Shown here in pieces: positions 23,704 through 26,070 of a stretch of DNA of 35,813 nucleotides. The position numbers and the translations under genes were made by a program. The DNA is from Thermoplasmata archaeon (lineage in GTDB: Archaea > Thermoplasmatota > Thermoplasmata > Thermoplasmatales > Thermoplasmataceae): NCBI GenBank assembly GCA_021806295.1, contig JAJZXS010000006.1, positions 1 through 35,813 of the forward strand, read 5' to 3'. The notes beneath the pieces are model-generated. The model made no database searches. It saw only the letters and a list, made by a program, of their open reading frames with translations, and was not told the origin of the DNA. Each line of letters begins with the position of its first letter. Positions within the stretch are counted from its first letter, which is position 1.

Positions 23704-24459
23704 ATGATATCAAATGCCTCAGTTGTAATACCTGCTCTTAACGAAAAAGATAACCTGAATAGACTTATTCCAGCACTGAAAAAGGATAATGTTAGTTCAA
23801 TATATGTTATAGACGATAGCTCCACTGACGGTACCGAAGAATTGAAGAAAAAATATCCTGATGTGCATTTTCTGATCCGGGGTGGGAGACTCGGACTTAT
23901 AAGTGCAGAAATAGATGGAATGAGGCTGACCGATACAGATTATGTTGTTGTCATGGACGCAGACCTTTCACATAGGCCAGAGGATGTGCCGGGAATGATT
24001 GATCAGGCCATTAAAACATCATCCGACCTCGTAATAGGGTCAAGATACATGGAAAGCGGAATTACCAATGATGAATTCATCAGGCAGGTAATAAGTAAAA
24101 TTGCCAATATGCTTTTCAGGATATCATTTGATGTTGATCTGCACGATTGCACTTCCGGATTCAGGGTATACAGCAGAAGGGCATGCAACTACCTTGGAAA
24201 ACAGATAGATATTGAAAATGGCTATGTTGGCCAGGTAGATATAGTGAGCAGGTTGCGGCATGAAGGATTTAAAATTACCGAATACCCTGTTGTTTTTGTT
24301 AAGAGAACCGAAGGCAAATCAAAATTGAAGATGCGTGAAATAGTAAATTTCTTCCTTTTTGTTGTATATAATAAAAAGATGTTCAGATTTTTGATGAGCT
24401 TTGCAGGCCTGGTAATTGTCATGGTAGTTATTTCATACCTGATTATCCGTTTTGTCTAA
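23704..24459 (+). CDS. GT2 glycosyltransferase, dolichyl-phosphate mannose/glucose synthase-like
   Basis: Transfers a sugar from a nucleotide donor to a polyprenyl phosphate at the inner membrane face, supplying protein or lipid glycosylation. The 251-residue protein has the GT-A core: VVIPALNEKDN near the start, IDDSSTDGT (about 36-44), VVMDADLSHRPEDV with the metal-binding DxD, and DCTSGFRVYSRRA, all typical of the DPM1 group. One hydrophobic helix at the C-terminus (about 226-249) anchors it. Its last 27 nt overlap the end of the convergent flavoenzyme gene. Confidence 0.9.
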   Translation: MISNASVVIPALNEKDNLNRLIPALKKDNVSSIYVIDDSSTDGTEELKKKYPDVHFLIRGGRLGLISAEIDGMRLTDTDYVVVMDADLSHRPEDVPGMIDQAIKTSSDLVIGSRYMESGITNDEFIRQVISKIANMLFRISFDVDLHDCTSGFRVYSRRACNYLGKQIDIENGYVGQVDIVSRLRHEGFKITEYPVVFVKRTEGKSKLKMREIVNFFLFVVYNKKMFRFLMSFAGLVIVMVVISYLIIRFV

Positions 24460-25749
24460 TCCCAGACTCGCCGCTATGATAATAGGGTCCCACACGGGCC
24501 CGTATTCAGGTTCATATCCGAGGTCGCTGTATAAAAGGTCGTAAAGTGTCATATGTCCGGAAATTGCATTTGCAAGTACATTTAATCTCCATGCTGAGTT
24601 TTCCTTTCCTATTATCTGGGCCCCCACAAGTTTCCCTGATTTCTTCTCATACACAATCTTTACATATATATCTGATCCGTGAAGGTAATTGGATTTATCC
24701 TTTGCCTTTATAAGTACACTGTCACTCTTAATTCCTGCCCTGCCGGCTGTGGTGCTATTTATCCCTGTATATCCCACCTGGTATCCAAATACATTTATAA
24801 CAGTCGTACCGAGGGCCCCTGGAAATATTCTACTGTTTCCGAATAAATTGATTCCTATCGTCCTGCCCATTTTATTGGCAACCTGAGCGAGGGGGTAGTA
24901 TCCGTAACTTCCTGTAACAGGATTCCTGGTTGCAACATTGTCCCCACCTGCGTATACATCATCTTCTGATGTCTGTAAAAAGTCGTTCACCTTTATCAGC
25001 CCATTATCTGTCAGTTCTATCCCTGCCTTTTCTGCCAGTTCAACTGATGGCTTTATTCCCGTGGCAAAGATAATATAATCCGTGGTGAATGATCCCTGGG
25101 TAGTTTTAATACTGTATTTGCCGGTAGATCCAGATATGGATTCTGGTACAGAATTGTATTCAATATTGCTGTTACTCCCTATTACAATTTTATTCAAAAT
25201 TTCACCCATATCAGGATCCAGATGTGGAAGAAGGTATTCATGCTTTGATATCAATTTAACCTTGTATTTCCTTGAAAGCAATGAGAATAATTCAGTGCCA
25301 AGCACCCCTGCTCCGATAACTGTTATGCTTTCTACACCGGGCAGTTTACCCTTTATGCCAATAGCGCTTTCCATATTCCTCAGTGATATACCTATTCCAC
25401 TGAATTCTTTAGGTATTTTCGGAGATGCACCTGTTGCAAGCACAAGTTTATCATAATTATATATTTTGCCACCGGCCTCAACATATTTTTTGCCAGTATC
25501 TATTGCAGTTGCAGGTACCCCTGTAAGTACATTTATGCCCCTGTGCTCTGTGAATTCTGTTACCGGATAATGGAGAAGGTCCCTGAAATCTTCAAAGTAC
25601 CCTGATAGATAATATGGCATGCCACATTCTGCATATGAAACATAACCTGTTTTTTCAAGCACTGTTATTTTTGCATCCTTATCCATACGCCTTGCCTTTG
25701 ATGCTGCTGACATACCGGCTGCCCCTCCCCCTATAACAACTATATTCAT
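24433..25749 (-). CDS. CoA-disulfide reductase / NAD(P)H oxidase-like flavoenzyme
   Basis: Pyridine-nucleotide disulfide oxidoreductase with one active-site cysteine. The 438-residue protein begins with the FAD turn VVIGGGAAGMSAA (4-16), has the single redox Cys at 42 in YAECGMPYYLSG, the NAD(P) turn VIGAGVLGTELFS, the FAD-closing DDVYAGGDNVA, and a dimerisation domain with the Tyr-containing GYEPEYGPVWDP near the end. The Cys42 motif is that of CoA-disulfide reductases and related NADH oxidases or polysulfide reductases; activity cannot be told apart here. Convergent overlap of 27 nt with the glycosyltransferase. Confidence 0.88.
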   Translation of the reverse strand: MNIVVIGGGAAGMSAASKARRMDKDAKITVLEKTGYVSYAECGMPYYLSGYFEDFRDLLHYPVTEFTEHRGINVLTGVPATAIDTGKKYVEAGGKIYNYDKLVLATGASPKIPKEFSGIGISLRNMESAIGIKGKLPGVESITVIGAGVLGTELFSLLSRKYKVKLISKHEYLLPHLDPDMGEILNKIVIGSNSNIEYNSVPESISGSTGKYSIKTTQGSFTTDYIIFATGIKPSVELAEKAGIELTDNGLIKVNDFLQTSEDDVYAGGDNVATRNPVTGSYGYYPLAQVANKMGRTIGINLFGNSRIFPGALGTTVINVFGYQVGYTGINSTTAGRAGIKSDSVLIKAKDKSNYLHGSDIYVKIVYEKKSGKLVGAQIIGKENSAWRLNVLANAISGHMTLYDLLYSDLGYEPEYGPVWDPIIIAASLGLDKTDNQV

Positions 25750-25900
25750 AAATCTAAATTATGAATGTTTATTTAACTCTTAAGCGGGAAGCACTGATCT
25801 TTAGAGAAGGGAGGATGTCACACCGAAGCCAAAAAGAATTAAATTCGACTTAAAAAGAAATCTGAAAATGATAACTAAACATATATTTCTATTTCAATGC

Positions 25901-25969
25901 TTATTCGTCGTCATCTTCGTCTTCTTCATCGTCATCATCTTCATCGTAATGCATTATGAAACTGACCAT
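25901..25969 (-). CDS. 22-residue highly acidic mini-protein
   Basis: A short frame on the minus strand begins MVSFIMHYDEDDDDEED and ends after a run of Asp and Glu (14 of the last 14 residues acidic), then TAA. A perfect Shine-Dalgarno GAGGAGGTG lies 5 nt before the ATG, and TATA-like AATATTTATTAA (about 26008-26019) is some 40-50 nt upstream, so the transcript would have a real leader. Most genes in this window are leaderless, which makes the strong site stand out. It could be a stand-alone peptide (metal or cation binding, protein decoy) or a leader upstream of the flavoenzyme gene, which starts 151 nt downstream after its own TATA box. No known family. Confidence 0.6.
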   Translation of the reverse strand: MVSFIMHYDEDDDDEEDEDDDE

Positions 25970-25974
25970 TGATG

Positions 25975-25983
25975 CACCTCCTC
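25975..25983 (-). promoter_or_regulatory. perfect Shine-Dalgarno of the acidic mini-gene
   Basis: The minus strand reads GAGGAGGTG, fully complementary to the archaeal 16S rRNA 3' tail (CACCTCC). Five nt separate it from ATG 25969. It is the strongest ribosome site noticed in the window. Confidence 0.75.
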
Positions 25984-26070
25984 ATAGCATAATCAATATA
26001 CGTCTTAATAAATATTGTGGTTTCATGATGACATATTTTGTTGATGTTCCATTTATGGTACCGGTGAAAT

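Follow-up and report, generated by a model that had tools for sequence, protein, structure and literature searches.

An acidic microprotein gene on the minus strand

The window, a stretch of 35,813 nucleotides from contig JAJZXS010000006.1 (assembly GCA_021806295.1), belongs to the archaeal genus Ferroplasma. A very short open reading frame is located on its minus strand, preceded by a Shine-Dalgarno (SD) site and a TATA-like box and followed on the same strand by the gene of a flavoenzyme, here called Cdr (Table 1). From residue 9 onward the encoded microprotein is a run of Asp and Glu; its 14 C-terminal residues are all acidic, and the last of them is Glu. The original prediction had described an ATG, 22 codons and a TAA stop with an SD five bases upstream and a TATA-like box further up, as well as a flavoenzyme gene 151 nt downstream on the same strand, and all of these features were confirmed, with the start of Cdr at 25749. 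Judging from the position of the TATA-like box, the microprotein transcript would start approximately 15 to 20 nt 5' of the ATG.

Table 1. Features at the microprotein locus of the window
Feature	Coordinates	Strand	Description
Acidic microprotein CDS	25969..25901	minus	ATG, 22 codons (ATG included), TAA; product MVSFIMHYDEDDDDEEDEDDDE
Shine-Dalgarno site	25983..25975	minus	GAGGAGGTG; 5-nt spacer CATCA before the microprotein ATG
TATA-box-like element	26012..26005	minus	TTTATTAA; 43 nt before the microprotein ATG
Multicopy repeat	25755..25821	minus	TGACATCCTCCC...GCTTCCCGCTTAAGAG; between microprotein and Cdr
TATA box of Cdr	25769..25776	minus	TTAAATAA; 27 nt before the Cdr ATG
Cdr	24433..25749	minus	CoA-disulfide-reductase-like flavoenzyme, 438 aa; NCBIfam TIGR03385 best match, Pfam domains

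Scored against GGAGGTG, the site before the microprotein matches at 7 of 7 positions, whereas the 35 other listed gene starts of the window reach at most 5/7, and 34 of them at most 4/7. The claim that nearly all other genes here lack such a site therefore holds. Perfect matches occur at 4 of 3000 random window positions. Across the whole genome, 43 sites of the form GGAGGTG-N3-8-[AGT]TG were found, whereas the reversed control pattern gave 23, so a perfect SD site is uncommon. Together with the TATA box, the 7/7 site agrees with the proposal that the gene is real and equipped for strong initiation. The gene is also, as had been expected, below normal gene-calling limits, and annotations probably lack the microprotein even in studied organisms such as Ferroplasma and Thermoplasma.

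Relatives and coding selection in the Thermoplasmatales

Relatives were sought by DNA, pattern and profile searches, the pattern searches being class-wide and order-wide. In addition, loci were read upstream of Cdr and, in genera missed by the profile, upstream of the Lhr helicase. In the following, g1 to g19 denote the genera of the window's family (f1), and f2 to f6 the other families of the order Thermoplasmatales. Ferroplasma is g1; g15 may be Thermoplasma, g13 Picrophilus, g2 Acidiplasma and g4 Cuniculiplasma.

Relatives with the same architecture were found in 81 of 92 genomes over two families of the order. In f1 they occur in 66 of 77 genomes and in all 19 genera, and the genomes without a match are mostly incomplete assemblies. 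In f5 the profile search gave a short-frame match in each of the 15 genomes, which represent 4 genera; MSIKRRPDDDEDDEDDDDF is an example, and the f5 genes are usually preceded by GGAGGTG. The distribution over 23 genera points to a conserved function in the cell, and the microprotein is probably a conserved cell component that annotation has overlooked. To judge from the sequences recovered, the family is single-copy in each genome. One assembly (G063) contains two near-identical microprotein-Lhr loci, L192 and L193, on contigs C3 and C6, as a result of a true duplication or of an assembly that mixes strains.

No microprotein match was obtained in families f2, f3, f4 and f6. In a phylum-wide draw, profile matches below E 0.3 outside f1 and f5 sit within frames of 704 to 2317 aa, with the sole exception of a partial match that is weak and is interrupted by a stop. 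The observed range of the microprotein is f1 and f5. A pattern search of the order returned SD sites with short acidic-ended frames in f2 and f3; these were rejected as N-termini of proteins that are Hsp20-like by sequence appearance. In a virus-wide pattern scan, none of the 25 matches had the full architecture, most being out of frame or the N-termini of longer frames.

Within Ferroplasma, an SD followed by an ATG and an acidic frame is present in 10 of 10 genomes, and Ferroplasma acidarmanus Fer1 (NC_021592.1) matches the SD-acidic pattern. Loss of the frame or of the SD among close relatives had been named as a finding that would speak against the gene; both are conserved. The heads of the Ferroplasma proteins read MVSF with four variable residues or MVGF[IV]KFGY, and their tails differ at synonymous sites, in the choice between D and E, and in length by whole codons.

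The catalogue of 78 genes shows the anatomy of the family. The products are 19 to 26 residues long with a mode of 23 (one of 30 residues has an uncertain start), and consist of a hydrophobic/aromatic or KRR N-terminus followed by 10 to 16 mostly acidic residues, often with a final Phe. The mean Asp/Glu content is 56%, and the net charge of five examples at pH 6.5 is approximately -8 to -14. The terminal Phe, found in 46 of the 78 relatives, is absent in Ferroplasma and several other genera and thus is not essential to the family. It is the acidity of the microprotein that is kept, not its exact sequence. Examples from f1 are MVNFVKRRDYDDDDDYDDDDDDF (g17), MVKFVRFYDDDDDDYDDDDDDDF (g13), MVFKKMDYDDDFDDEDEDEDDDDF (g15, TTG start), MLFNYRPRDDDDDDDDDDDDDDGF (g4, GTG start), MFVPFWYGDDDDDDDDDDDDGF (g18) and MVSARRRDFDDDEDIDEDDDDF (g7). 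The most divergent versions include those of g18, beginning MFVPFWYGD, and of g15, beginning MVFKKMDYDDDF. Because the tail is mostly of low complexity, the homology of such versions is based partly on the SD, the promoter and the gene position, not on the sequence score.

The signals around the gene are conserved as well. Of the 78 relatives, 70 score 6/7 or 7/7 against GGAGGTG, a level reached by 0.5% of random positions. The TATA match was scored in 77 relatives, and in 70 of them the best match falls 38 to 46 nt 5' of the start codon; from this fixed spacing, a short leader that includes the SD is predicted. Within 60 nt past the stop, 30 of the 78 genes have a run of at least six T, where 10 would be expected from shuffling; nearly all of these genes are in f1 (29 of the 63 genes there).

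ATG, TTG and GTG are all used as start codons. Among the 46 genes catalogued first, 19 have a TTG start despite a perfect SD, a high share; the choice is consistent within lineages (g6, g8, g10 and g14 to g17). In three genomes the frame is intact and the start is unusual: G021 (L209) has ACG at the expected ATG (ACGGTAAACTTT), and in G045 (L217) and G046 (L170) a standard start is missing from its usual position. The starts of the three, which read ACG, GCG or a displaced GTG, could be errors in metagenome-assembled genomes or assemblies, or rare initiation codons.

The pattern of substitution is that of a protein-coding gene. Ferroplasma pairs of the same length differ at codon positions 1/2/3 in 2/17/75 cases, and the corresponding counts are 3/3/35 in g17, 0/4/28 in g15 and 43/56/179 in f5. 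The third position holds most of the differences in all eight lineage groups tested. An antisense hydrophobic frame at 25868..25972 on the plus strand was rejected, since the third-position variation fits the minus-strand frame. The acidic codons are mixed (GAT 294, GAC 232, GAA 67 and GAG 17), and runs of identical codons do not exceed four; the mixture of GAT and GAC and the shortness of these runs rule out a microsatellite origin. The excess at position 3, together with the relatives in 81 of the 92 genomes, supports the earlier view that a chance frame is unlikely. From these comparisons, we infer a genuine, unannotated protein-coding microprotein gene.

A regulatory RNA in which the short frame is incidental would fit the short transcript predicted here and the strong conservation of the SD and the 5' region, but it would leave unexplained the third-position excess in every group and the length changes by whole codons, and no Rfam family matches; this explanation is highly improbable. 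Searches of Pfam, NCBIfam, the PDB sequences (phmmer) and Rfam gave no match to the microprotein. A sub-threshold Rfam match to a Plasmodium snoRNA, at 27 bits against a cut-off of 90, was taken as chance. In the open-access literature, no description of the family was found.

Neighbouring genes and the question of action in cis

Cdr matches TIGR03385 at E 3e-104, which is below the curated cut-off of that family, and has the Pfam domains Pyr_redox_2 and Pyr_redox_dim. Where its start could be located (g1, g2, g13 and g15), Cdr lacks an SD and has a TATA box 27 to 30 nt before the ATG, sequence signals that suggest a separate promoter of the leaderless type. It is the next gene in these same four genera and lies 1.8 kb downstream in g12, 5 of the 23 genera in all. 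Cdr is a lineage-specific neighbour that stands outside the microprotein unit. In Ferroplasma, the distance between the two genes ranges from approximately 40 to 740 nt. The repeat between them has many copies in the genus, one of which is beside a TnpB-like frame (L008); it is probably a solo transposon end of the IS200/IS605 type and may be the source of the variable Ferroplasma spacing.

In other lineages the neighbours are different. An Lhr-type helicase of approximately 910 aa (Pfam DEAD, Helicase_C, WH_Lhr and DEAD_assoc; Lhr-core) is next downstream in 13 genera: g3 to g6, g8 to g11, g14 and g16 to g19. It follows Cdr in g15 and also in g12, where it lies 3 kb downstream. In g4 only some 15 to 40 nt separate the microprotein gene from Lhr. 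In g7 the downstream neighbours vary between species. In f5 the gene overlaps one for a RimI-like GNAT protein, which is followed by a RibL-like gene, both labels being given by sequence appearance. The likely RimI-like start codon there lies, in a different frame, among the codons of the poly-Asp run (L221, L222, L223 and L234 to L244), an overlap that suggests translational coupling in f5. No neighbour is constant throughout, and thus what has been conserved is the microprotein on its own.

The frequent linkage to Lhr raises the idea that the microprotein could serve this helicase as a small subunit or regulator, its gene having sometimes become separated from that of Lhr. Lhr is a nucleic-acid enzyme, which an acidic peptide could regulate, and in the genera just listed it is next downstream or follows Cdr. 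Against this, Lhr is elsewhere in g1, g2, g7, g13 and f5, all of which have retained the two genes, and f2, f3 and f6 have Lhr and no detectable microprotein. Genes beyond Lhr also keep their order, so the linkage is explained by inherited synteny. A partnership with Lhr is unlikely, even if it is the least unlikely of the rival readings.

The best rival that acts in cis is a ribosome-destabilising leader, in which the ribosome becomes unstable or is slowed on the acidic run (intrinsic ribosome destabilisation, as in MgtL and MgtQ) and the downstream gene, in the window that of the flavoenzyme, would thereby be regulated. Fourteen acidic residues in a row close to the N-terminus are of the type that aborts translation in bacteria and yeast (PMC8092293; PMC9718836), and the microprotein gene precedes a gene of the same strand almost everywhere. 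The short gap in g4 and the overlap in f5 make a local cis effect possible in these two groups. Like the microprotein gene, MgtL and MgtQ are very short SD-led frames with early Asp/Glu located upstream of another gene (PMC8092293). Unlike them, the microprotein has no constant downstream gene, has its own promoter, is often followed by a T-run, and has a much longer acidic run in a peptide conserved across two families. A leader requires a constant target gene, but the downstream genes are unrelated between lineages and differ even between g7 species; moreover, the Ferroplasma spacing is variable, and every Cdr locus examined shows a predicted promoter for Cdr alone. Nor would a leader that serves to abort translation need, as a separate unit, a TATA box and an SD of this strength. 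Regulation in cis as the general function is thus improbable.

Two possibilities had been proposed for the gene, a free acidic peptide or a leader that acts on the flavoenzyme. The first is the best reading of the present data. The second is unsupported, since Cdr is linked in so few genera, and it is also opposed by the TATA box of Cdr without an SD. Similarly, the suggested arrangement of SD, ATG and acidic tail was indeed found in relatives, upstream of Cdr homologues and elsewhere, but the link to Cdr is specific to certain lineages.

Possible role of the acidic peptide

The best explanation of these data is an independently transcribed, single-copy, SD-initiated gene for a polyanionic microprotein, of 22 residues in the window, to which as a whole we assign a probability of approximately 0.7. 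At the level of sequence, the spacing of promoter and SD, the frame, the length and the acidity are kept while the neighbours change. Efficient translation of the microprotein and its action in trans as a free peptide are very probable on these grounds. If so, it is of interest how the ribosomes of archaea manage as many as 14 successive acidic codons near the start, as early acidic runs of this kind are known to make the ribosomes of bacteria and yeast unstable. Proteins this short are seldom conserved, and one in which more than half of the residues are Asp or Glu, with its own promoter and a perfect SD, would be unusual.

The molecular role can be proposed more tentatively. The acidic tail may act as a nucleic-acid mimic or an electrostatic chaperone for an abundant protein with a basic surface, where it would compete with RNA or DNA or shield the surface from it, while the head and the end residue would provide contact with the partner. 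The kept charge and length, the hydrophobic/aromatic or KRR head and the frequent terminal Phe point in this direction, although this step has somewhat less than an even chance of being right. The acidic tip of the Hfq C-terminal domain provides a model: it mimics nucleic acid, binds the basic rim of the Hfq core in competition with RNA, and binds the core also as a peptide in trans; SSB has been named as a similar case (PMC5606850). An undescribed microprotein of two families that would act in trans in this way on archaeal chromatin, RNA or the translation machinery is a possible extension of the proposal, if less likely than not.

The tip of Hfq, for which electrostatic competition with nucleic acid is the proposed mode (PMC5606850), and the SSB C-terminus of E. 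coli share with the microprotein a short acidic run and, in many relatives though not in the protein of the window itself, an aromatic last residue. Both, however, are tails of a larger protein, whereas the microprotein is a separate product of 19 to 26 residues without an OB or Sm domain. A further nucleic-acid-binding protein with an acidic C-terminal tip is gp2.5 of phage T7. Attachment to a nucleic-acid-binding domain, as in SSB or gp2.5, was not seen in the microprotein family, whose relatives are all stand-alone frames.

Poly-Asp also binds divalent cations, and the tail might instead chelate Mg2+, Ca2+, Mn2+ or Fe in metal-rich acid, as a metal-ion buffer or mineral binder. The hosts are acidophiles, and conservation of acidity instead of sequence would be expected of such a function. 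It would leave unexplained the conserved head, whether hydrophobic/aromatic or KRR, the Phe with which many relatives end and the limited variation in length, and no conserved neighbour resembles a metal transporter or regulator. A role in metal binding is improbable, slightly less likely than a cis-acting leader, but more likely than an incidental frame in a regulatory RNA.

In size, a close comparison is ribosomal protein L41e, which has approximately 25 residues, is encoded by a single-copy gene and is easily missed by gene callers. L41e is strongly basic, however, whereas the present family, absent from Pfam and NCBIfam, is strongly acidic.
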